Below, one piece after another: positions 4,282 through 31,074 of a stretch of DNA of 64,000 nt. The DNA comes from Synechococcus sp. 1G10 (GTDB lineage Bacteria > Cyanobacteriota > Cyanobacteriia > PCC-6307 > Cyanobiaceae), in NCBI RefSeq assembly GCF_002252625.1, contig NZ_NQKW01000003.1, positions 1-64,000 of the forward strand, in the 5' to 3' direction. Each line of letters starts with the position of its first letter. Position 1 is the stretch's first letter. The position numbers were made by a program, and so were the translations under genes. Under the pieces are notes generated by a model, which saw nothing but the letters and a program-made list of their open reading frames with translations, ran no database searches and was not told where the DNA came from.

Positions 4282-5460
4282 ATGAGGACTTGGATTTTTC
4301 AAGGAAACCCTTCTATTTTTGATCTTGATGGGTTTCTGCAAAGCCATCCCGTTGATTTTTCCTGGCTTGCAAAGCAGCATCGTGACAAGATCATGCCAGG
4401 AGACGATGTATATGTTTGGAGATCCGCTGGAGATGCCCGTGGCACTGCCGGTATCGTAGCGAAGGCGACGGTGATATCTGAGCCATATGAGGGCCCCGAT
4501 GATCAGGTCTCGGTGCCATACTGGAAGTATGCTTCAAATGCTACATCAGTACAATGTAGAGTTCGAATACGACTAGAAAAGTCTGCGAGTTCACGCGAGA
4601 TAATTAAGAGAGACTGGTTGGTTGAAGATCCTATTTGCCATGACCTGTTAGTTATCCGGCAGCCAGCAGGGACAAACTATCCCGTTAACCAAGATCAAGC
4701 TGATCGACTTGGCCAGCTTTGGTTGCGTACAGGAGTGGACTGGAGTAGAGCAGAGTCGCTGGCTGCACTTCGAACTTACGGATATACGCTTAACCAAGAG
4801 ATCTCTAGGAAGAGAGGCAGCCCAGTGGCAGAGCTTGCTCTCTTGACCGGTCGCTCCGTGAGTGGGGTATATAACAAGATCATGAACTTTCGAGCAATTG
4901 ATCCAAGGGACCAGCGAGCTGGGCTCAAGGGAGGAAGCGATATAGACCGTGCAGTCTGGGCAGAGTTCTTCGACAGGACTAGCCGAGAACTTAATCAAAG
5001 TGCCATAGAGAAGGAGTTTCATTCACTATGGACGAACTCATGGATTCAGAAGTCGCTTGACACTCAATCTGAATCGCTCAAATCAAAAACATCAGCATTG
5101 GCCGCGTTGAGTCAGCAGGAATTATTGCAACGAATCGCCAAGCGGGCCACCTCAGACATTCCTCGATCTGGAACCATTACAACAACTATCTTTGATCGTG
5201 ATCCTGCAGTGATCGTGTTTGCCAAGACTCGCGCACAGTTCCGATGCGAAGTCCCTGGCTGTCTGTACCAGCTATTTCTTAGGTCAGACGGAGAAGCATT
5301 CATCGAGGTCCATCATATTCGGACCCTGGCTAGTGGTGGTACAGACATCCCTGATAATGTTGCATGCCTGTGTCCCTCCCATCACAGGGAAATTCACTTT
5401 GGGATGGAAGGTGGGCGTCTAACCAACCTGCTGCTTGAGCTACGAAAAAGATCAGGCTAA
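4282..5460 (+). CDS. EVE domain-HNH endonuclease fusion (putative modification-dependent restriction enzyme)
   Basis: A 392-aa protein in three parts. Residues 1 to about 145 are an EVE domain, recognisable from MRTWIFQGNP, the MPGDDVYVWRS segment and GIVAKATVISEP. EVE domains are PUA-like pockets that bind modified bases. Residues about 150-245 are the helical region often found before HNH domains in such proteins (TGRSVSGVYNKIMNF, DRAVWAEFF). Residues about 320-385 are an HNH nuclease with CEVPGC, VHHIRTL, an Asn in DNVACLCP and SHHREIH, so the zinc cysteines and catalytic histidines are all present. EVE-HNH fusions are proposed type IV-like enzymes that cut DNA carrying hypermodified cytosines. 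Codon use is more AT-rich than in the host genes. It lies convergent to the terminase gene, a likely defence cargo of the island. Confidence 0.88.
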   Translation: MRTWIFQGNPSIFDLDGFLQSHPVDFSWLAKQHRDKIMPGDDVYVWRSAGDARGTAGIVAKATVISEPYEGPDDQVSVPYWKYASNATSVQCRVRIRLEKSASSREIIKRDWLVEDPICHDLLVIRQPAGTNYPVNQDQADRLGQLWLRTGVDWSRAESLAALRTYGYTLNQEISRKRGSPVAELALLTGRSVSGVYNKIMNFRAIDPRDQRAGLKGGSDIDRAVWAEFFDRTSRELNQSAIEKEFHSLWTNSWIQKSLDTQSESLKSKTSALAALSQQELLQRIAKRATSDIPRSGTITTTIFDRDPAVIVFAKTRAQFRCEVPGCLYQLFLRSDGEAFIEVHHIRTLASGGTDIPDNVACLCPSHHREIHFGMEGGRLTNLLLELRKRSG

Positions 5461-5605
5461 ACTGATATGTCAGAAGCCTCAACGGGGAGAGCGTTGTTGT
5501 AGAGGCAGGCTAGTGAGTGTCACACCTTCCAATGGATCAGGGCCCAGAGGTACCCCCTTAGGCGAGTCACCAGAATCCCTGAGAGGGTCCCAACCACTAA
5601 AGCTT

Positions 5606-7072
5606 TCACCACACCCTGAAGTTCGTCGACCCCACCATGCTCCTGCTGCGCTGCCAAACCACCCCATACCGCACTGCATCCAATGCGTGCTGCGCCGTTC
5701 CATCAGCTACTCGCTCACAATCTGTCGGGTGGCGGGGCAGCGTCGGCACCGTGGCCATCCAGCCCTGACATGCCTTGCTCCATAGGAGCCACGGTGTCTC
5801 CGGGTCACGACTTGCTGCCTGCAGCATCGTGCGGACCAAGGCTAGGCCGTTCGCTTCTCTCACCGAGAGCTTCCCGGCACGGCGAAACCGCACACCGGCA
5901 TCTTGGAAGTCACCAGCCACTGAACCCCTCGGCCCGCCGGTCGCGTTGAACACGGCATCGTCCATCACGATCTGCAGATCCCTTGGCTCCAGTCCCCATC
6001 TGCTCAGCCATTCCTTGAGCGCCATGGCTTGCTCGGCATTGCTCATGTAGGAGCCACGGGTCCAATCCCGTTGCCCACCGCTGGTGCTGGCGCAGACGTA
6101 CATCTCATCGATCAGCCACAGGCTGCCCTTGGGGGCGCTTGGTGGGTCCGGAATGGCCAGATAGAACACCGATGGGGCAGCACAGCCCCAGTCGCCCACC
6201 ACGAAGGGCTTGTGGAGCCTCAGGTTGATCTCCCCAGGCTTCACTTCACGCATGGAGCGGCGCACCGAGAAGCTCGTCCCGAAGAACGCCCCGGCAATCT
6301 CCACGTCCAGCCGCCCTCTGAGCCAGGCATCTAGCAGCGCAGGGTCATCACCACATGCCACCCGCAGGCTGCGGATGTAAGCATCAAGGTCGATGTACTG
6401 GTTGCTGGCCGCAGTGGCACTGAAATAGACGCAGTGCTTCTCCAGGTCCTCGCTGTAGAACCGTGTGGGCTTGCCGGCTTCTGGATAGCCCGAAGGTATG
6501 CCGAATCTTGTCTGCAGCCACGCATGGCCAGCGCCTCCAGGGTTACCCAGCAGGATCACACGGGTCTGGATGCCTTCCGGTGCACGCAATGTGGCCCGTA
6601 CGGTGTCGATGAAGTCACTGGTGGGATGGGTACCGACTTCGTCATGGATGTGGCAAACGTAGCTACGCCCCTGATAGCGGGAGAGTGATTTCTGCATCTC
6701 AACAGGCCCGTTGCCCACATAGCCCAGTTCCACTGAGCCGAAAGGAGCATCAGGCCCACCGAGCTTGAACAGCATCGTGGCGCCGCTCCAAGTGGTGCCT
6801 GGGAAGGCCCTGGCGTAATAGCGCCAAAGCAGGCCCTGCAGTTCAACAAGACCCTGGTAGGTCTGACGTGTGATCAGGCAACTGTACCTGCCCTTGAAGA
6901 TACTGGCATCACGGGCGGTTATCAGCGGAATGGCATAGGACTTGCCAGTACCCCTTGCGGTTATGGCACAAACATCATCAGCCAGCGGGCAATCAAGCAG
7001 AATCCGCTGAGTCAGGTTTGCTTCACCAATCTCCGGGGCTGGTGCAGGCAGCCGTGGTGCGGTCTGAGTCAT
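5606..7072 (-). CDS. terL: Phage-type terminase large subunit
   Basis: A DNA-packaging motor of 488 aa from the ATG at 7072 (496 aa from a TTG at 7096). The N-terminal ATPase has Walker A TARGTGKS and a Walker B-like stretch ending HIHDEVG. The C-terminal RNase H-like nuclease has its acidic positions in VVGDWGCAAPS, IVMDDAVFN and HALDAVRYG. Length and domain order are normal for TerL, with no visible lesion. No portal, protease or capsid gene follows; the next gene on this strand side is the convergent EVE-HNH gene. A packaging enzyme without capsid genes is typical of satellites that use a helper virus, or of a decayed prophage. Confidence 0.88.
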   Translation of the reverse strand: MTQTAPRLPAPAPEIGEANLTQRILLDCPLADDVCAITARGTGKSYAIPLITARDASIFKGRYSCLITRQTYQGLVELQGLLWRYYARAFPGTTWSGATMLFKLGGPDAPFGSVELGYVGNGPVEMQKSLSRYQGRSYVCHIHDEVGTHPTSDFIDTVRATLRAPEGIQTRVILLGNPGGAGHAWLQTRFGIPSGYPEAGKPTRFYSEDLEKHCVYFSATAASNQYIDLDAYIRSLRVACGDDPALLDAWLRGRLDVEIAGAFFGTSFSVRRSMREVKPGEINLRLHKPFVVGDWGCAAPSVFYLAIPDPPSAPKGSLWLIDEMYVCASTSGGQRDWTRGSYMSNAEQAMALKEWLSRWGLEPRDLQIVMDDAVFNATGGPRGSVAGDFQDAGVRFRRAGKLSVREANGLALVRTMLQAASRDPETPWLLWSKACQGWMATVPTLPRHPTDCERVADGTAQHALDAVRYGVVWQRSRSMVGSTNFRVW

Positions 7073-7096
7073 AGCCGGCGAGCATCCTTCCTCCAA

Positions 7097-7335
7097 TCTA
7101 GTCGCGGCTCAATGCGCCACAGGACGGTGAAGATTGGGCGTCAAAATATTCAGCGCGGGTGAAGGTGATGAGGCGCAGATTGCCCCCCCTACCCGGGGTG
7201 GTGAATCTGGGGTGGTTGGCGCTCTGGGGAGTGAGTGGGAGACGAGACTGAAGGGTGGAGATTGCAACCATACCCCCATTCCTTATGCTTACTGGTGGAC
7301 AAGGTAAGCATAGCCTACCTTGCCCAGAGACAGTA
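7097..7335. other. Intergenic region between terL and an upstream hypothetical gene
   Basis: No gene is supported. It contains a perfect 9-bp inverted repeat at 7284-7312, listed separately, and G/C-rich runs around 7180-7245. A GGAGGA motif at 7089-7094, just inside the longer reading frame of terL, may serve as the ribosome binding site for the 7072 start, although the spacing is long. Confidence 0.35.
7284..7312. repeat. Perfect 9-bp inverted repeat
   Basis: TATGCTTAC (7284-7292) and GTAAGCATA (7304-7312) are exact reverse complements with an 11-bp spacer. A second, overlapping inverted pair, AAGGTA (7301-7306) and TACCTT (7316-7321), shares the right arm. The repeat lies 24 nt past the stop of the minus-strand 7336-8046 gene. 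There is no T-run after it, so an intrinsic terminator is doubtful. An operator or a recombinase-binding site is possible given the serine recombinase gene 0.8 kb away. Confidence 0.6.
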
Positions 7336-8046
7336 TCAGCGGTCTGGATAGATCTCGCGGCATAGCTCTTGCGCTCCCCAGCTCATCGCCAGGTTCACAT
7401 AAGCAGCGGTGAAATCGTCTGGGTCATCGATTGTCTGACCTTCCAATGCCTCCAGGGTAGACGTGCATCCGATGGCCTCGCAGTAGGCGTCAAACAGTGC
7501 ACGAATGCTGTCTTCCTGCCGGCCCCAGCGTGCCAGCAGGTCTCGCGTGTAGCACTCCGCCAGGTTCACCCAGTCGCTGTGGTCGAAGTCTTGCAGCGAC
7601 TCTGGGCAATCATCGAAGCGCTCGATGATGTCGTCGATCGCTGCGTTGTTCGGTGCGCTCCAGTTTGTATCGACCCAGCGGCTGCCGGCATCTTCCAGCA
7701 TCTGGCGCAAGGTGGGCGGTTCTTGGTCGTCATCGTCGATGGGCCAGAAACCGAAGTCAGCGCCATCACCCGGATGGCTGCCGAAGAACCAGCCAGGATT
7801 GGCGGCACCGTCGAGCAGCTCAATCAGTTCTTCGATGATTTCGCTTGCGTCATCTGGCAGCTCGGGAGCAACGGGGCTCGATGCACTGCAAGCAAGCAGC
7901 TGAGCACGATCGATCAGACCATCTGGAGCACGGTCTGCGATTCGCAGATCATCGATGGTGCCAAGGAAGGAGTCAGCCAGCTGGTCGGGGCGCAATGTCC
8001 CAGCAGAAATGCTGCCGACGGCAAGAGCCGTGGAGGTGGTAGTCAT
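7336..8046 (-). CDS. Acidic hypothetical protein of the mobile element
   Basis: A 236-aa, strongly acidic protein (SEIIEELIELLDG, PIDDDDQEPP, DDIIERFDDCPESL) without membrane segments. The N-terminal 60 residues are low in complexity and the rest looks helical. I do not recognise a family. It lies between the putative small and the large terminase genes on the same strand and is divergent from the serine recombinase, so it is probably part of the element. Its acidity would suit a DNA mimic or an accessory packaging/antirestriction role, but nothing in the sequence proves this. Confidence 0.6.
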   Translation of the reverse strand: MTTTSTALAVGSISAGTLRPDQLADSFLGTIDDLRIADRAPDGLIDRAQLLACSASSPVAPELPDDASEIIEELIELLDGAANPGWFFGSHPGDGADFGFWPIDDDDQEPPTLRQMLEDAGSRWVDTNWSAPNNAAIDDIIERFDDCPESLQDFDHSDWVNLAECYTRDLLARWGRQEDSIRALFDAYCEAIGCTSTLEALEGQTIDDPDDFTAAYVNLAMSWGAQELCREIYPDR

Positions 8047-8156: not shown

Positions 8157-8840
8157 GTGGACCTTGTTGCCTATTACCGCGTCAGCACCCAGCGGCAAGG
8201 GCAGAGCGGGCTTGGGCTTGAAGCTCAAAAGGCTCGCGTGGAAGAGCTGGCACTTCAAAGAAATGCCAAGGTTGTGGCGGAATTCGTAGAGGTCGAGTCA
8301 GGGCGGAAGCCCGACAGACCACAGCTGGCTGCAGCTTTGGAGGAAGCCCGAAAGCAGCGAGCCGCCGTTGCGGTTGCAAAGCTTGACCGGTTAGCACGTG
8401 ATGCTGAGCTGGTGCTTCGGCTGAGCCGTGAAGCGGAGGCCAACGGTCTGGCAGGCTTCTTGTTCTGCGATCTCCCCGACGTTGACGCCACCACCAGCGC
8501 TGGCCGGCTGATCCTGTCAGTGATGGCCAGCGTGGCTGAATTCGAATCGCGCCGGATCAGCGAGCGCACCAGGGACGCCTTGAATGCGGCCAAGGTGAAA
8601 GGCAAGGCGCTCGGTGCTCGACTTCCCAAGCAAGCTGCCGCCAATGCAGAACGTGCTGCCCAGGCTCAACAGGTGGCCGAGAAGCTGGCCGGCATCATTC
8701 GCCCCATGCGTGAACGCGGCGACTCCATGCAGACCATTGCCGAAGCTCTAACAGGCAGCGGGGTCCCCACTACCGGAGGCAAGGGCAAATGGAACGCTAT
8801 GGGCGTCAAGCGTGTCCTCGCCCGTCTAGGCCTCTCTTGA
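8157..8840 (+). CDS. Small serine recombinase (resolvase/invertase family)
   Basis: A 227-aa protein starting at a GTG. The resolvase catalytic domain spans about residues 1-145: YYRVSTQRQGQSGLGL carries the nucleophilic serine, followed by KLDRLARDAE with the active-site arginine and ESRRISERTRDAL leading into the long E helix. The C-terminal part (about 175-227) is a small helix-turn-helix region ending in TGGKGKWNAMGVKRVLARL. Size and layout fit the resolvase/DNA invertase class rather than the large serine integrases. It may resolve, invert or integrate the element. No tyrosine integrase is visible in the island. Confidence 0.9.
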   Translation: MDLVAYYRVSTQRQGQSGLGLEAQKARVEELALQRNAKVVAEFVEVESGRKPDRPQLAAALEEARKQRAAVAVAKLDRLARDAELVLRLSREAEANGLAGFLFCDLPDVDATTSAGRLILSVMASVAEFESRRISERTRDALNAAKVKGKALGARLPKQAAANAERAAQAQQVAEKLAGIIRPMRERGDSMQTIAEALTGSGVPTTGGKGKWNAMGVKRVLARLGLS

Positions 8841-9603: not shown

Positions 9604-9999
9604 ATGTCGCTATCAATACTTTGCCATAGACTGCAGGCGATTTGCTACTTCTTTGCAGGAGATTGGCGAGGGCGGTGGTTTGTTGCCGTGGCCCAAATCG
9701 ACAGGGCCGGGCCCGCCGGAGTCGACTTCGCCATCTGGTGCATCGCACCACCCCGCAGGTGCCAACTGCTCAGGAGGGGGGTGGAGCATCGGCTGGCTCC
9801 CGAGCCGCTGGCCGTCATCACCAGGCCACCGCTGGACCAGTTCACCGTGGTGTATCTGCGCCGCATGGCCCAGGCCATAGGGCTCACCCAGGTGGGTGGG
9901 GTGTGGACCTCGAAGGCCAAGCGTGCGGACCTGCTGCTGGCGCTGAAGCATGGCCTGCTGCCGTACACAACGGGTGAAACCAGCTTTAGGCTCTGGTGA
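9604..9999 (+). CDS. Hypothetical protein with SAP-like C-terminus
   Basis: A 131-aa frame from the ATG at 9604, only 11 bp from the divergent start of the putative small terminase gene. A GTG at 9690 (MAQIDRAGPAG) leaves more room for promoters and may be the real start. The C-terminal 35 residues (LRRMAQAIGLTQVGG, SKAKRADLLLALKHG) resemble the helix-turn-helix pattern of SAP/HeH nucleic-acid-binding motifs. No family is recognised. It could be a minor gene of the element. Confidence 0.45.
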   Translation: MSLSILCHRLQAICYFFAGDWRGRWFVAVAQIDRAGPAGVDFAIWCIAPPRRCQLLRRGVEHRLAPEPLAVITRPPLDQFTVVYLRRMAQAIGLTQVGGVWTSKAKRADLLLALKHGLLPYTTGETSFRLW

Positions 10000-10048
10000 T
10001 CTTAGTCAGTCTTCGAGGCGCCCTTAAACCAGTGAGGTTAACTTATTT

Positions 10049-10498: not shown

Positions 10499-10590
10499 GT
10501 CGCTGTTCCCTGCCTAGTCCATGGATAGCTAAGGATCTGCTCTCATGTCTCTCCCCTGCTTAAAGTTCCGTAATGGTCATACGGAAGCGC

Positions 10591-13500
10591 TCAGTGGGCA
10601 TCGCCCCAGCTCTCGCCGACCTGGGCCGCGGCCTTCAGTGGGATGTCTCCCAGGTAGGTCTCCCGGAGCCGCGGGGATGTCATCACGGCCAGGGCCGCGG
10701 CCTTCACCTGCTCCAGCTGATCGCTGGGCACTTCGAGCAGGAACTCGTCATGGATCAGGCCGATCACCCTCACGCCAGGGTACTGATCCAGCTCCTGCCA
10801 CAGGTCTCCAGCGGCATCGGCCAGCAGGTCCTTCCCTGAGCCCTGGATGGGGAAGTTCACGCCGTTCGTGCGGTAGATCGGGAAGGTGGGTCTGGTGCCG
10901 TCAGCGTTGGCGCCGTTGCCGACGTTGCGGATCCTGCGACCGCTGACGGTGCGGACCTGGTAGATGGTGCCGTCCGCGTACTGGGCCATCTCGCGGCTGA
11001 TCTGGGGGTGGAACCGATGCCAGGCGTCGTAGACCTCCCTGGCCTTGTGCTCGGCCACGGGGACGCCCTGGGCGGCGCTCAGCAGCCCCTGCAGGCTCTT
11101 GGGGTAACAGCCGTAGGCCAGGGAGAAGTTGGCTGGCTTGGCGGCGATGCGCTGGGCTGTGGTGACGGCATCCTTCGTCACCAGGCCCTGGGGGCGTGGC
11201 AGATCGAACAGGGTGAGCGCCATCAGGGCGTGGGGGTCCACCCCATCCAGCAGCACCTGGCGGCAGCCGCTGTCGTTGTAGAGCCTGGGGCTGGCCTGCA
11301 GGGCGATCTCGATGCTGTCCCAATCCAGATCCAGCAGCACCGTGTCGGGGTTGCCTGTGACCAGAGCGGCCTTCGTGCGGCCCGTGAGCCCCTGGAAGTT
11401 GAAGCCGTACTGGGGGAGCTTCTCGGTCTTCCACTGGCCAGCCTTCTGGGCTGTGGGGCCATAGACCTCGGTGTCGGATGGAACGCGGCGCAGCTTGCTG
11501 CCCTCACCCAGCTGGGCGCTGGTGGTGGTCCTGCCCGTGTTGGCCCCCAGGATGCGGTAGCTGGGGTGGATGCGGCCATCACCCTGGGCGATGTCGCGGC
11601 GCAGCCAGGTGACCTCCTTCAGGGTGGCGTCCAGGTCGCGCACCTCCAGCAGCAGATCCACGGCGGGGATGCCGCGGTAGGGGGCCAGGGCCTGGGCGTC
11701 GGTGGTGGGTCGGTCCTCCCTCGCCCCCGTCTCCTTGTTCGTCTCCTTCTTCAGCAGCGGTGCACCGACCGCCGCGGCCAGGGCTGGGTGCAGCTGCTCC
11801 ACCGAGCGGTAGTTCTCGATCCCCAGTAGCACGTGCAGACGTGCCACCTTCTCCGTGCGGGCCTCTCGGGCTAGCACCTCCAGACGTGCCAGTTCCTCCA
11901 GGTCCACGGCCAGGCCACGCACCTGTCCATCAGCGCAGGGGCCGATCATCTTGTTCTCCAGGTGCAGGGCCATCACCTGCCCAGTGGCCTTCAGGTGCCC
12001 CTGCAGGGCGTGCGCAAGGGGCCAGACCACCTTGGCATCGGTGGCGGCGTACTGCAGCTGCTCAGCGGTCAAGGCGTTCCCCCAGTCGCTGGTCTGGGCT
12101 TCCTTGTCCAGCTCCTCCCCCAGGTAGTGCCGCGCCACCGACGCCAGGCTGCTGCCCGCCAGGTCACCGATCAGCTGGGACGCCAGCATCGTGTCCCACC
12201 AGCCGCACAGGGGGCGGATCCCCGCGGCAATCAGGAAGGTGGCTTCGAACAGCAGGTTGTGGCCGCACAGGGTCCGCTGTGGGTTGCGCACCAGGGAGCG
12301 GAGCCACTCGATCGCAGGGGCGCCGATCACCGCCACATCCACCACCCAGGTGTGGCTGCCGTCGTGGATCTGCGCCAGGCGGATCTCACCACCCAGGGAG
12401 GGGAACAGGCCCGCCACGTGACGGTGGAGATCTGTGCGGCGGTTGAAGGTCTCCAGGTCGAAGCCGAGCCAGAGCGGCATGGCATCGGGGTCGGGGAGAT
12501 CGGTGGACGCGGCCACGTAGGTGATGTCCTCAGGCAGCTCGCCCTCGAAGGGGGTGGGGATGGGGGCCGCCACCACGCGGGGTTCCACGGGGGTGGGGGC
12601 TGGCTTGGCCTTGATGACCCGCTTCTTCCTGGGGGGCTTGGGGGTGGGCACCAACTCCTGGCCCAGGGGGTCCGCTGCCGCGGGTAGGGGGGTGGAATCG
12701 TCCAGGGGTGGAGCCGAGTCGATTCCACCCTGGGGGCCTGAACGATTCCACCCCTCGCGCGGGGACGTGCGGGGGGTGGAATCGATGGAATCGTTCAGTG
12801 TTTGCAAGGGTTCTTCTGAACGATTCCACACCCCACCCTCCCTGGTCCCCCCGCATATAACGCTTGCGTCGATTCCATCGATTCCACCCTGGGTCTGTCC
12901 CCGCGCGAGGGGTGGAATCGTCCCCGCCCCATCCCCTGCGATCGGTGCCTCGGTGGCTTCCGCTTCACCCCCCACGGAGACGGCCACCACATCCACCACG
13001 GCGGGCGGCGGGTTGCCCTCACCCATGGGCCAGAACTGATCCGTGGGTGTCCCGTCAAGCGTCACCTTCAGGGACTGGACCAGGGACTTCCTCGCCAGCT
13101 GATCCAGGTTCCGCCAGACCGCCTTGTGTGCGCTCGATCCCTGGATGCCCAGAATCTCCACCACCTGCTTCACAGTGGTTCTCTCCCCCTGCTCCCGCCA
13201 GCGCAGACGCACCACGGAGAGAACATCGCCCTGGCGATCGGTCAGATCGTCCTCCACCTTCTGGCGGCGGTTGGCGGCCTCCACCGCGTCGGGGCTGCCG
13301 TGGCTGACCCATTGACCTGTGGCCTTCTCCCGCTCCACCAGGAGACGCACAGGGGCCCCGCCGCGGCCTTCGGTGACCAGAACCCTGCGGTCATCCAGGA
13401 ACCAGTCCTCACCCCTTGCCGCAGGCGCCAGGTTGATGTTCTGGCTGCTCAGAGCTGGAAGGGCGGTGGTCCCCCTGGATGCGGTGCTGGCCGCCGAGTG

Positions 13501-14955
13501 GGAAAGCACCTTGCCGCTGTGGTGAACGATCACCGCACCCGCTCCGTGGGGGGCCAGGGCCTCCATCAGATCCGACGCTGGCTCGGCAAAGCTGGCGTCC
13601 TTCTCCTCCAACCCCAGACCGCGTGTCAGCTCGGCGTAGCTGTCACACAGAACAAGCAGGCCTGGGTGCTTCTCGGCGTAGGCCTCGATCTTCTCGATGC
13701 CGACGGTATCCAGGGTGAGCGGACGGCCCTTGTGGAACAGGCCAACGATCGGCCAGCCGAAGGTGTCGTCCTCGTTCAGCAGGCCGAAGCCGCTCAGCAT
13801 CTCCACCCAGTCATTGGATGGCATATCCACCCCCACCAGCAGAACGGGCGGGCAGGGGCCGATCAGCGGCAAACCCAGGAACTCGGTGGCGCCACGGCTC
13901 CAGGCGGCGATCACTGCCACCAGAAGGCTGGTCTTCCCCGCCTTGGGGAGAGCCACCATCAGGTTCAGGCAGGCGGCCAACAGCACGCCCTCCCACAGCC
14001 AGCGGTCCTTGGTGCGGGTTAGCACCTCCCCAGGTGCCACGGCTTCGGTGTTGCCCCTTGCAGCCCGCTTGGCATCCCAGACGCACTGGAGAAGCTCCTG
14101 ATCCTTCAGCAGGATGTCGAGATCACGGGCAAAGGCCCGCAGCAGGGGAACCCGCTCGGTGACGCGCACCTTCTCGGCCAGCAGGGTGGCGGCCTGCTGG
14201 CGCAGCTTGGCAATCTTCTCCGCGTGGGGCAGCTCGGTGGCGCTGGGGCGGGCTGGCAGCCTGCTGGGGGCATGGCGCAGCAGGTTCATGATCAGCCCTT
14301 GGCGCTCGTGGCCCTCGGCCACCCCCAGCACGTCATCCAGGCCCGCGGTGCCACCAGCACGGAGCAGCACGAAGCGCACCAGCAGGGCGCCAATCTCCTG
14401 GGCCAGAACGTCCGCCAGGTGATTAGCTGCCTCCCACACCCTGAGTTTGGTGGCCACGTCGGCATCGAAGGCCAGGAAGACGGTGCGGTCCTTGAGGGGG
14501 ATCCGCTCCAAGCAGGGGATGGGCTTGCCGTTGCATCGCCACCCATCACAGCCGCTCACCCCCACGACGGCGACCTGGGCCCCAGCCAGAGCCGATGCCG
14601 CGGCCAGGTACTGCTTCGTACCTTCCACAATCACCAATGGCACGTCCGAGCGTGCCACCAGCTCCTGGTGACCAGGCGGCACCGCCAGCACCATCGACGC
14701 CTGGTTGGGCCAGCGGTACTCACCCTTGGGCTGGCCGTCCTTCTCCCCCTTCCACCTGACCTGATGGATTGCTGGACCGTCGAACGGCTGCCAGGTGAAA
14801 ACCATGGGATCCAGCCCGCTCCCCACCAGCCAGCTGTACTTCTCAAACCCGCGCGGCAGATCCAACAGGGAGCTGATCGAGTGAACGGCGGTGGCCCTTA
14901 GGTCGTCGATTCCCGCCGCTAACAGAAAGGCCCTGTGCTCTTCAGACAGTCCCAT
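10591..14955 (-). CDS. TOPRIM-helicase-exonuclease-DNA polymerase A replication fusion protein
   Basis: A 1454-aa multidomain replicase. Residues 1-215 are a DUF3854/TOPRIM-like domain (acidic pieces LVIVEGTKQY at 107-116 and FLAFDADV at 160-167). Residues about 310-550 are a RepA/AAA_25-type helicase ATPase with Walker A LPKAGKTS (336-343), an acidic segment LLVLCDSYAEL (433-443) and VIVHHSGK. Residues 650-800 are a low-complexity linker. Residues 825-990 are a 3'-5' exonuclease with FDLET (832-836), CGHNLLFEATF and YAATDAKVV, so all Exo motifs are present. Residues 1080-1454 are a family A polymerase with motif A LLDLDWDSIEIAL, motif B RIAAKPANFSLAYG and motif C HDE (1402-1404). Every catalytic residue I can check is intact. 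It probably supplies priming-associated, unwinding and synthesis functions for the element in one chain. Confidence 0.9.
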   Translation of the reverse strand: MGLSEEHRAFLLAAGIDDLRATAVHSISSLLDLPRGFEKYSWLVGSGLDPMVFTWQPFDGPAIHQVRWKGEKDGQPKGEYRWPNQASMVLAVPPGHQELVARSDVPLVIVEGTKQYLAAASALAGAQVAVVGVSGCDGWRCNGKPIPCLERIPLKDRTVFLAFDADVATKLRVWEAANHLADVLAQEIGALLVRFVLLRAGGTAGLDDVLGVAEGHERQGLIMNLLRHAPSRLPARPSATELPHAEKIAKLRQQAATLLAEKVRVTERVPLLRAFARDLDILLKDQELLQCVWDAKRAARGNTEAVAPGEVLTRTKDRWLWEGVLLAACLNLMVALPKAGKTSLLVAVIAAWSRGATEFLGLPLIGPCPPVLLVGVDMPSNDWVEMLSGFGLLNEDDTFGWPIVGLFHKGRPLTLDTVGIEKIEAYAEKHPGLLVLCDSYAELTRGLGLEEKDASFAEPASDLMEALAPHGAGAVIVHHSGKVLSHSAASTASRGTTALPALSSQNINLAPAARGEDWFLDDRRVLVTEGRGGAPVRLLVEREKATGQWVSHGSPDAVEAANRRQKVEDDLTDRQGDVLSVVRLRWREQGERTTVKQVVEILGIQGSSAHKAVWRNLDQLARKSLVQSLKVTLDGTPTDQFWPMGEGNPPPAVVDVVAVSVGGEAEATEAPIAGDGAGTIPPLARGQTQGGIDGIDASVICGGTREGGVWNRSEEPLQTLNDSIDSTPRTSPREGWNRSGPQGGIDSAPPLDDSTPLPAAADPLGQELVPTPKPPRKKRVIKAKPAPTPVEPRVVAAPIPTPFEGELPEDITYVAASTDLPDPDAMPLWLGFDLETFNRRTDLHRHVAGLFPSLGGEIRLAQIHDGSHTWVVDVAVIGAPAIEWLRSLVRNPQRTLCGHNLLFEATFLIAAGIRPLCGWWDTMLASQLIGDLAGSSLASVARHYLGEELDKEAQTSDWGNALTAEQLQYAATDAKVVWPLAHALQGHLKATGQVMALHLENKMIGPCADGQVRGLAVDLEELARLEVLAREARTEKVARLHVLLGIENYRSVEQLHPALAAAVGAPLLKKETNKETGAREDRPTTDAQALAPYRGIPAVDLLLEVRDLDATLKEVTWLRRDIAQGDGRIHPSYRILGANTGRTTTSAQLGEGSKLRRVPSDTEVYGPTAQKAGQWKTEKLPQYGFNFQGLTGRTKAALVTGNPDTVLLDLDWDSIEIALQASPRLYNDSGCRQVLLDGVDPHALMALTLFDLPRPQGLVTKDAVTTAQRIAAKPANFSLAYGCYPKSLQGLLSAAQGVPVAEHKAREVYDAWHRFHPQISREMAQYADGTIYQVRTVSGRRIRNVGNGANADGTRPTFPIYRTNGVNFPIQGSGKDLLADAAGDLWQELDQYPGVRVIGLIHDEFLLEVPSDQLEQVKAAALAVMTSPRLRETYLGDIPLKAAAQVGESWGDAH
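12691..12920. repeat. Iteron-like array inside the replicase linker
   Basis: The 10-mer GGTGGAATCG or its complement CGATTCCACC occurs nine times in 230 bp (some with one mismatch). Forward copies are at 12691, 12775, 12784 and 12911. Reverse copies are at 12720, 12743, 12821, 12870 and 12879. Larger units are superimposed: a perfect 24-bp inverted repeat (12743-12766 with 12897-12920), a perfect 13-bp inverted pair (12786-12798 with 12816-12828) and a 15-bp direct repeat (12720-12734, 12879-12893). The array encodes only the disordered linker of the polymerase fusion, so the protein is free to tolerate it. An origin of replication or another protein-binding region is the simplest reading. 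Confidence 0.8.
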
Positions 14956-15060
14956 CTGCCGCTCAGCTCCCCACGACGACTAGGGCGCTGATGAGCCAGG
15001 AACGTTCGACTAAAGCCAGCCTGCCCACCATGGAGGTGGAACATTCTTTGCAGCCAGCCA

Positions 15061-15342
15061 TCAGCCCGCCCTCGTAGCACTCAGCTGCGATGCATGGGCA
15101 GCGTCATACGTCTCCGGTCGGCGCCGACGGGCCTGCTTTGCCGCAAGCTCCAGCAACGTTTCCCGAACACGGGGAACGCTGTAATAGAACCTGCCGCGCT
15201 TTGGCCCGACGGTGTAAAAGTGATGGCCGGGCTTGAGGATGCCCTGTTTTTTGTATTCAGCAAGCTGACGCTCAGAAGGCCCTACGGCCTCCGACAACTG
15301 TGTGATTGGCACCCAGGGGGCGCCCGCTTCTTGGGAAGACAT
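15061..15342 (-). CDS. Small HTH protein, excisionase/AlpA-like
   Basis: A 93-aa protein. Residues about 10-60 form a winged-helix/MerR-like pattern: WVPITQLSEAVG, PSERQLAEYKKQG, then a wing GPKRGRFYYSVPRVRETL. The tail is basic (KQARRRRPE). Xis/AlpA-type regulators of mobile elements have this size and order. It is the gene nearest the replicase on the tRNA side, the usual place for excision control. Function is inferred from fold pattern and position. Confidence 0.6.
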   Translation of the reverse strand: MSSQEAGAPWVPITQLSEAVGPSERQLAEYKKQGILKPGHHFYTVGPKRGRFYYSVPRVRETLLELAAKQARRRRPETYDAAHASQLSATRAG

Positions 15343-15386
15343 GACATACCAGTCTGAATTGACTGGCTTCGTGCCACAAACGTGTA

Positions 15387-15632
15387 TTACTGGTTTTTGC
15401 GTGCCTTGAACCAGGCCCGATCACGGCGTCGGCAGTAATCAACTGCTGCAAGGGCCATCTCGTAGATGACGAAATTCCCCTTGCTCCAGTCGTGCTGGCG
15501 CTGTGGTTTGCCTGGTGGCGGGTTGAACTCGTCCGCTGCCGCCATCATCTCCTGTGCGGAGAGCGTGGAGTCCTTAGGCATCTGGATGATTCCGACGCCG
15601 GACCTTCGTGAGTAGCGGTTGGGTTTGGGCAC
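15387..15632 (-). CDS. Small hypothetical protein
   Basis: An 81-aa basic protein from a GTG at 15632; an internal ATG at 15578 (MPKDSTL) is an alternative start. The middle is proline-rich (FNPPPGKPQRQ) and the C-terminus is a probable helix ending in basic residues (DRAWFKARKNQ). No family is recognised. It is the outermost gene of the element before the tRNA and lies 44 nt upstream of the HTH gene on the same strand, so the two probably form one transcript. Confidence 0.5.
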   Translation of the reverse strand: MPKPNRYSRRSGVGIIQMPKDSTLSAQEMMAAADEFNPPPGKPQRQHDWSKGNFVIYEMALAAVDYCRRRDRAWFKARKNQ

Positions 15633-15785
15633 AACAAGCTCAGCAGTACAGCTTGCGGCAACCCCGACCCAATTCCTGACTGAGCGCCACCCCAGACGGC
15701 TCGGCTACGGACGCGGTTGCTAACGCTTCCACGCCATTCGGTTCTTGATGATGATCTTAATGGCTTCCTGCAGAGGGCCGCAGCA

Positions 15786-15873
15786 GCTTGCAGGCAAACT
15801 CGCGGACAACTCGGCTTGCAAGCGGCGTGGCGAGACGGCCTAGCAGGAAGGGTTGTCCGCGCTTTTGTCCGCG
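15786..15873. repeat. Short repeats beside the tRNA 3' end, candidate attachment region
   Basis: TTGTCCGCG occurs at 15853-15861 and 15865-15873, and its complement CGCGGACAA at 15801-15809. GCTTGCA occurs at 15786-15792 and 15814-15820. They lie 30-120 bp from the 3' end of the tRNA-Pro gene and on the island side, where integrase arm or core sites would be expected. No second copy of the tRNA 3' end is visible elsewhere in the window. Confidence 0.45.
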
Positions 15874-15902
15874 CCCCTTCTGTCTTATGGCTGAGAAGTC
15901 AA

Positions 15903-15976
15903 TCGGGGCGACAGGATTCGAACCTGCGACCTAGTGCTCCCAAAGCACCCGCGCTACCAAGCTGCGCCACGCCCCG
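15903..15976 (-). tRNA. trnP: tRNA-Pro (anticodon TGG)
   Basis: Read on the minus strand, the 7-bp acceptor stem CGGGGCG pairs with CGCCCCG, followed by discriminator A (complement of base 15903). The D arm has GCGC-AGCTTGGTA-GCGC, the anticodon loop TTTGGGA gives anticodon TGG, and the T arm has GCAGG-TTCGAAT-CCTGT. CCA is not encoded. The island lies on the 3' side of the gene, the usual target half for integrating elements. Confidence 0.97.
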
Positions 15977-16044
15977 CCGTTATCGACCTTACCTACCGAG
16001 CTCCAGGCGAATGCGTCAATGCTTGGAAGCTCACTCGGCTCTGG

Positions 16045-29640: not shown

Positions 29641-31074
<1,434 letters not shown>

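Follow-up and report, generated by a model that had tools for sequence, protein, structure and literature searches.

A repeat array inside a cyanobacterial replicase gene as the probable replication origin of a tRNA-adjacent mobile element

The gene for a large replicase in Synechococcus sp. 1G10 holds a dense cluster of short repeats within its own coding sequence, which raises the question of whether these repeats follow from the protein or form a DNA site, such as an origin at which the replicase itself would act. We analysed the cluster in the window, i.e. the whole stretch of 64,000 nucleotides, and in related loci (denoted L). The best explanation, and one that we hold as a whole to be very probable, is that the array forms the iterons of a replication origin, that this origin belongs to a satellite- or tycheposon-like mobile element beside a tRNA gene of a picocyanobacterial genome, and that the replicase is the initiator helicase.

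The array and the replicase gene that contains it

The replicase gene and its repeats are laid out as follows.

10591-14955, minus strand: replicase, 1454 aa, with DUF3854, RepA-like helicase, winged helix, linker, 3'-5' exonuclease and DNA polymerase A (Pfam, PHROGs and model)
14326-14661, minus strand: DUF3854 (aa 99-210; Pfam), with VIVEG and FDAD motifs that are TOPRIM-like by eye
13510-14013, minus strand: AAA_25 helicase core (aa 315-482; Pfam); best solved fold RSF1010 RepA
13027-13293, minus strand: winged helix (aa 555-643), the proposed iteron-binding domain (AlphaFold2 model, LexA-type match)
12511-13008, minus strand: linker from winged helix to exonuclease; pLDDT below 50 in its modelled part, from about aa 650
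11992-12390, minus strand: DNA_pol_A_exo1 (aa 856-988; Pfam)
10600-11883, minus strand: DNA_pol_A (aa 1025-1452; Pfam)
12691-12920, no strand: putative iteron array, nine TGGAATCG, with two 9-bp tandem doublets (12777/12786 and 12870/12879)
12693-12700, plus strand: unit 1
12720-12727, minus strand: unit 2
12743-12750, minus strand: unit 3
12777-12784, plus strand: unit 4
12786-12793, plus strand: unit 5
12821-12828, minus strand: unit 6
12870-12877, minus strand: unit 7
12879-12886, minus strand: unit 8
12913-12920, plus strand: unit 9
12733-12793, no strand: left arm of the 61-nt dyad
12870-12930, no strand: right arm of the 61-nt dyad
12780-12828, no strand: 40-bp stretches with the highest AT content in the gene (57%), close to the middle of the dyad; a weak candidate for where the strands open

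We found nine exact copies of the octamer TGGAATCG within 230 bp (12691-12920), all inside the replicase coding sequence and in the strand order + - - + + - - - + over 12693-12920; the 64-kb window has a single further copy, at 30725. The sequence-only reading had described nine copies of a 10-mer here, in both orientations, denser than coding constraints explain and overlaid by longer repeats. The count was slightly overstated, since the exact 10-mer GGTGGAATCG accounts for six of the nine copies and the remaining three are off by one base outside the octamer. The rest of the description held up. Copies lie on both strands and fall in four orientation/phase classes, over TIPP, GGID/DGID, WNRS and NDSI/IDST/DDST; hence, the array is not a peptide repeat. 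When the array region was recoded using the gene's own synonymous codons, the mean was 0.53 copies and the maximum 5, and nine copies were reached in 0 of 20,000 trials. Similarly, matches to GGTGGAATCG with at most one mismatch numbered 21 in the window, relative to a mean of 4.78 and a maximum of 12 in 100 shuffles. The superimposed longer repeats are real; among them is the 61-nt inverted repeat (85% complementary, 76 nt between arms), which gives the array dyad symmetry.

The 10-mer might also have been common across the chromosome, which the earlier reading would have counted against itself. We found 26 exact copies of GGTGGAATCG in the 3.34-Mb genome (84 contigs), i.e. six in the array and 20 elsewhere, and no two of those 20 lie within 1 kb of each other. 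With regard to strand opening, the stretch at 12780-12828 is the richest in AT in the gene, yet it ranks 12 of 29 in the locus, and no general signal of an AT-rich unwinding region was found across 23 arrays.

The replicase has a putative primase part, with a PHROG 'DNA primase' match at aa 106-241. The AlphaFold2 model (aa 241-685, nine sequences, mean pLDDT 75, pTM 0.57) places a RecA-type core before a winged helix (model residues 315-403), and a segment with pLDDT below 50 follows from residue 410; up to model residue 400, the winged helix scores 83-94 per ten-residue block. Among solved folds, the helicase core best matches RSF1010 RepA (1olo; Foldseek E 1.1e-4; TM-score 0.34 by query and 0.57 by target), with a weak sequence-profile match to 1g8y (E 0.009). 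RSF1010 RepA is not known to have an origin-binding winged helix, and a separate protein, RepC, binds the iterons.

The winged helix matches the DNA-binding domain of a LexA chain (profile E 2.7e-4). For the window protein alone, the match to the LexA-type DNA-binding domain is under the Pfam cut-off (E 0.0011); it passes the cut-off in the relative L091 and in phage S-CBS3. A winged helix C-terminal of the helicase core is therefore predicted, for which we propose a role in binding double-stranded DNA. Pfam and PHROGs scans of the replicase gave no family named after lambda O. In the direction of the gene, the octamers begin at aa 679, approximately 35 residues past the winged helix. In L091, a second winged-helix-like copy was seen by eye between the first one and the array, approximately 100-300 nt past the end of the helicase profile.

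Arrays behind the winged helix in relatives, plasmids and phages

Using a profile of helicase plus winged helix (A1), we found relatives in 73 of 400 family genomes at E 1e-20. Regions were taken for 60 of the 90 listed matches, and others were added, among them the window, L037 and L040 (four more rows); the duplicates L077, L078, L084 and L090 and the contig-end-cut L104 and L111 were left out, and 62 loci, window included, were scored. The test region was the 800 bp around the profile end, an array was scored when a 350-bp span held four or more copies of the same octamer without overlap, and 618 other windows from the same loci served as controls. At least four copies were present in 24 of 62 loci relative to 20 of 618 control windows (Fisher p 5e-16), and at least five in 14 of 62 relative to 4 of 618 (Fisher p 1.5e-12); some loci are close kin (e.g. 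L098-L100; L139 and L141), so these counts are not all independent. Dinucleotide shuffles matched the count in 0 of 60 trials for 23 of the 24 array loci and in 1 of 60 for L122. The other 38 loci have fewer than four exact copies. In named contigs, the relatives belong to Cyanobium, Synechococcus and Prochlorococcus (four of eight labelled Prochlorococcus); scans of viral contigs gave no confirmed relative.

The array had been said to occupy a disordered linker. In the window this agrees with the low pLDDT of the modelled linker part; a coding linker is not needed, however, as several relatives have their array just beyond the stop codon. Two loci depart in position: L142 has a AAGAATCC array like that of L139 and L141, displaced to approximately +2.4 kb from the helicase, and in L114 several different octamers, each present six times, crowd together at approximately +2.9 to +3.2 kb.

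The repeat word varies by element, e.g. CCGTGACA (11 copies), GAGTGTCA (nine), GTGAGCCA (nine), AAGAATCC (eight) and GTAGTTGA (seven), and only close relatives have the same octamer. The spacing recurs. Across 27 arrays, the distance between neighbouring copies on one strand is exactly 9 bp in 63 of 123 cases. Since 9 bp is three codons, arrays outside the helicase frame matter here, and 20 of the 63 pairs sit in six arrays without copies in the helicase open frame (L040, whose gene is broken, L093, L098, L105, L139 and L141). Corroborating this spacing, the 39 loci without a strong exact array have 25.1 doublets at 9 bp per 10 kb, relative to 7.5 elsewhere (p 8e-17), where doublets are octamer pairs with at most one mismatch and the test region is set against the rest of the locus. 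In these 39 loci there is also a twofold excess at 18 bp, which is two times nine, a smaller one at 11 and 17 bp, and none at 8 or 10 bp or at 12 and 15 bp, which like 9 bp are whole numbers of codons.

Winged-helix similarity was not significantly correlated with unit similarity across 24 arrays in a crude test (Mantel p 0.13), for which the winged-helix segment was cut by a fixed rule that leaves the domain incomplete in L137, L139 and L141. All four pairs with winged-helix similarity of at least 0.84 have a common unit, and in pairs with similar cores and diverged winged helices the units differ; both sets are too few for a claim.

The sequence-only reading had asked whether the repeat DNA is kept while linker amino acids vary, and this was so in the one pair compared, L035 (a helicase-polymerase fusion) and L042 (no polymerase in frame), whose homologous linkers have the unit AAACTGCCG in common. 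Identity is 310/621 in the helicase part and 34/89 for the linker amino acids. In the DNA alignment, 70 of 72 positions are identical within units of either sequence (97%) relative to 101 of 197 outside (51%), for a single pair and with aligners that can favour repeats; one L035 unit is aligned to a gap in L042. One AAACTGCCG unit reads ETAE in one of the two proteins and KLPS in the other. Such a change of reading frame cannot stem from conservation of the protein. The same linker amino acids without repeats, which would have spoken against a DNA-level role, were looked for and did not occur.

Three cases, i.e. the window, L091 and L094, fuse a RepA-type helicase (AAA_25) to polymerase A, and two further fusions, L035 and L036, have a D5-type helicase (D5/DUF5906). 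Four of these five have a clear linker array; L036 has four copies only, as does the non-fused relative L041. Copy numbers for fusions, phages, plasmids and other families are raw counts, with shuffle controls among these for the window, L091 and L094.

The same helicase is encoded by cyanosiphophages S-CBS1 and S-CBS3. In each genome, octamer copies cluster most densely inside this helicase gene, behind the winged helix, where there are four exact copies; the arrays lie at approximately 28.7 kb in S-CBS1 and 31.5 kb in S-CBS3, and GC skew shows no turn there in either. A search with the L190 helicase, from another family, added S-CBS4 and further plasmids. S-CBS4 has no array, so that the arrangement is present in two of three cyanophages. 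Among plasmids, four of seven carry such an array, with four or more copies, within the gene or immediately after it: Nostoc C057, Nostoc HK-01 plasmid3, Anabaena pANACY.03 and Aulosira plasmid4, the last weaker and tied with another cluster. No array was found in two Gloeothece plasmids, and Synechocystis B12 has a cluster upstream of the gene instead. In other cyanobacterial families, the array is in the gene, after the helicase, in six of eight loci (weakly in L186), behind the gene in L188 and absent in L187; in seven of these loci, the usual distance between neighbouring copies on one strand is 11-13 bp (21 of 29).

The element beside tRNA-Pro

The surroundings of the replicase gene hold these features.

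15903-15976, minus strand: tRNA-Pro(TGG), with its 3' end at or close to the point where genus members cease to be similar
15061-15342, minus strand: small protein with a weak MerR-type HTH match, under the Pfam cut-off; lies upstream of the replicase
8157-8840, plus strand: serine recombinase (PHROG integrase/invertase), same region
5606-7096, minus strand: terminase-large-subunit-like protein, same region

In seven genus members, DNA similarity starts between 15886 and 15933 and runs rightward (one extends just 66 bp beyond the tRNA, and two have no tRNA call there). Leftward similarity stops, except for one match in L171 to a gene of the region. Hence, the 3' side of tRNA-Pro is variable. 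The L171 match (9646-10005 against window 7329-7686) is a 76%-similar gene copy approximately 9 kb from tRNA-Pro, which suggests a related element at the same tRNA-Pro site.

Tycheposons are tRNA-linked mobile elements of Prochlorococcus (PMC10872708, in excerpt), and the region resembles them as a tRNA-adjacent mobile island in picocyanobacteria. In contrast to tycheposons, no tyrosine recombinase was recognised among the scanned window proteins, where the serine recombinase alone was recognised, and no 14-mer of the tRNA recurs within the window as an attachment repeat. For these two reasons, we call the element only satellite- or tycheposon-like. Since the window begins at the start of the contig, the left boundary may lie outside it. 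A search for RNA families in 10500-16000 gave none besides the tRNA.

Positions 1-1404, the left end of the window, and 5605-6541, part of the terminase-like gene, recur in the same genome with 93% identity at 1-1404 and 5097-6033 of L163 (contig C76), which may mean either that the genome has another, related element or that the assembly broke at a repeat. Beside the element, 4282-5460 encodes a fusion of an EVE domain with an HNH endonuclease, which may be a modification-dependent defence nuclease.

The origin reading and its alternatives

From anatomy and comparison, we infer the following mechanism. The winged helix of the replicase would bind the octamers, which are grouped as direct and inverted copies, at 9 bp from one tandem copy to the next, on either side of a short centre. 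Helicase rings would load from both sides of the dyad and the DNA would open; the fused primase-like and polymerase-A domains would then prime and extend. Since the origin would lie within the gene for its initiator, the two would move as one unit, and with its own repeat word in each element lineage, each initiator should start its own DNA only. Iteron origins have several copies of a short replicon-specific repeat in or adjoining the initiator gene, and the arrays agree: the word differs between replicons, and the position recurs in relatives (24 of 62 by exact copies, not all). An origin inside the gene of its own replicase, as the sequence-only reading had proposed, is thus supported as a reading by the finding that, in many relatives, plasmids and phages, the array directly follows the winged helix.

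Against the origin reading we count the lack of a general AT-rich region, the phage skew without a turn, the Mantel result and the 38 loci without four exact copies, as well as the four control windows with at least five copies, the array-less Gloeothece plasmids and S-CBS4, and the upstream cluster in B12.

The same winged helix could bind the array for control, i.e. autoregulation, copy-number handcuffing or incompatibility, which plasmid iterons also serve, and the position and unit data fit any winged-helix function. We consider control alone unlikely: the arrays lie where the helicase part ends or beyond the stop codon, a long way from the gene start, which would be odd for an operator, and the analogous repeats form an origin beside SaPI Rep and a putative origin beside SCCmec Cch2 (PMC7581432, in excerpt). 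Still less probable is a centromere-like partition site bound by a ParB/ParR-type protein. Partition sites are arrays of short repeats, and a ParA gene lies approximately 1.6 kb downstream of the helicase gene in the Nostoc C057 plasmid; however, no ParA was recognised among the scanned window proteins, and none is named in the annotations of S-CBS1 and S-CBS3.

We also weighed a repeat without function, arising at the coding level or by mutation from a low-complexity linker or an inserted short repeat family. The modelled linker part is predicted to be disordered, and such linkers tolerate repeats, but this origin of the array has very little probability and is largely refuted by the arrays outside the helicase frame with the same 9-bp spacing, by the DNA conservation of the L035/L042 units and by the synonymous null; the four orientation/phase classes and the scattered chromosomal copies of GGTGGAATCG point the same way. 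A packaging or helper-phage recognition site of a phage satellite (pac/cos-like or an origin mimic) would suit the terminase-like gene in the same region. We give it hardly any weight, as the same arrangement is found on four cyanobacterial plasmids and the array goes with the helicase gene, not with the terminase.

Returning to the origin reading, known systems offer partial parallels. SaPI Rep, an initiator helicase, uses its C-terminal domain to recognise iterons that immediately follow its own gene, and a putative origin in the corresponding place is bound by SCCmec Cch2 (excerpted text of PMC7581432). The likeness would lie in an initiator helicase with short iterons, here probably bound by the winged helix. 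The helicase families given for SaPI Rep and Cch2 are DUF927 and D5/Primase_Cterm (same excerpt), whereas the core here is AAA_25 and RepA-like. The replicase is not in the SaPI Rep families, although the fused relatives L035 and L036 do carry a D5-type helicase, and the SaPI origin is behind its gene whereas the window array is inside. We know of no polymerase A fused to SaPI Rep. Phage lambda has origin iterons inside its initiator gene O, and these are nearly perfect 19-bp inverted repeats beside a 40-bp AT-rich region (PMC5043065, in part). The window array, as a putative origin, shares the in-gene position and inverted symmetry; it differs in having octamers, 9-bp tandem spacing and no clear AT-rich region. 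Lambda O is not known to act as a helicase or polymerase. In satellite phage P4, the alpha protein (ori1, crr) joins primase, helicase and origin-binding domain and uses short iterons, which are not known to lie in the alpha gene, and no fused polymerase is known.

PLE RepA is an iteron-binding initiator of another satellite (PMC7145576, in excerpt). Apicoplast PREX has primase, helicase, 3'-5' exonuclease and polymerase in one polypeptide (PMC6523293, in excerpt). As described, this domain order parallels that of the window replicase (primase-like, helicase, exonuclease, polymerase A), although PREX is an organelle enzyme of apicomplexans and chromerids. To our knowledge, PREX has no winged helix or embedded origin. 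The arrangement would be a SaPI-like pair of helicase and origin, built on a RepA-type helicase that in three cases, the window among them, is fused to polymerase A, and with the origin in the gene as in lambda. Titles and abstract openings from part of the open-access literature gave no prior description of such arrays in these elements; an earlier description is possible.

If the origin reading is true, the origins of many cyanobacterial islands, plasmids and siphophages could be read from sequence, by looking for an element-specific octamer behind the winged helix of the RepA-like helicase with 9-bp spacing (approximately 11-13 bp in other families). The pairs of winged helix and repeat would be material for studying how origin specificity changes and could supply orthogonal replicons for cyanobacterial engineering, and the coding sequence of a compact replicase would have been shaped most likely by a DNA-binding function. 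A bolder version is tentative, and we lean against it: one 4.4-kb gene would be a complete self-specific replicon, whose single protein combines domains for origin binding, helicase, polymerase, proofreading and primase-like functions and whose coding sequence holds the only origin that this protein recognises; in cyanobacterial islands, plasmids and phages, repeated change of the word with the layout kept would give many mutually compatible replicons.

A secondary motif like GCRSYGCAAGGGGTTTC was seen in or near arrays with different octamers (L093, L123, L126, L127, L140 and others), at most 600 bp past the helicase. Allowing up to three mismatches, we found 13 matches in 42.9 kb of array regions relative to 21 in 573 kb elsewhere, confined to 10 loci; the window is without one. 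This motif is possibly a shared origin core.
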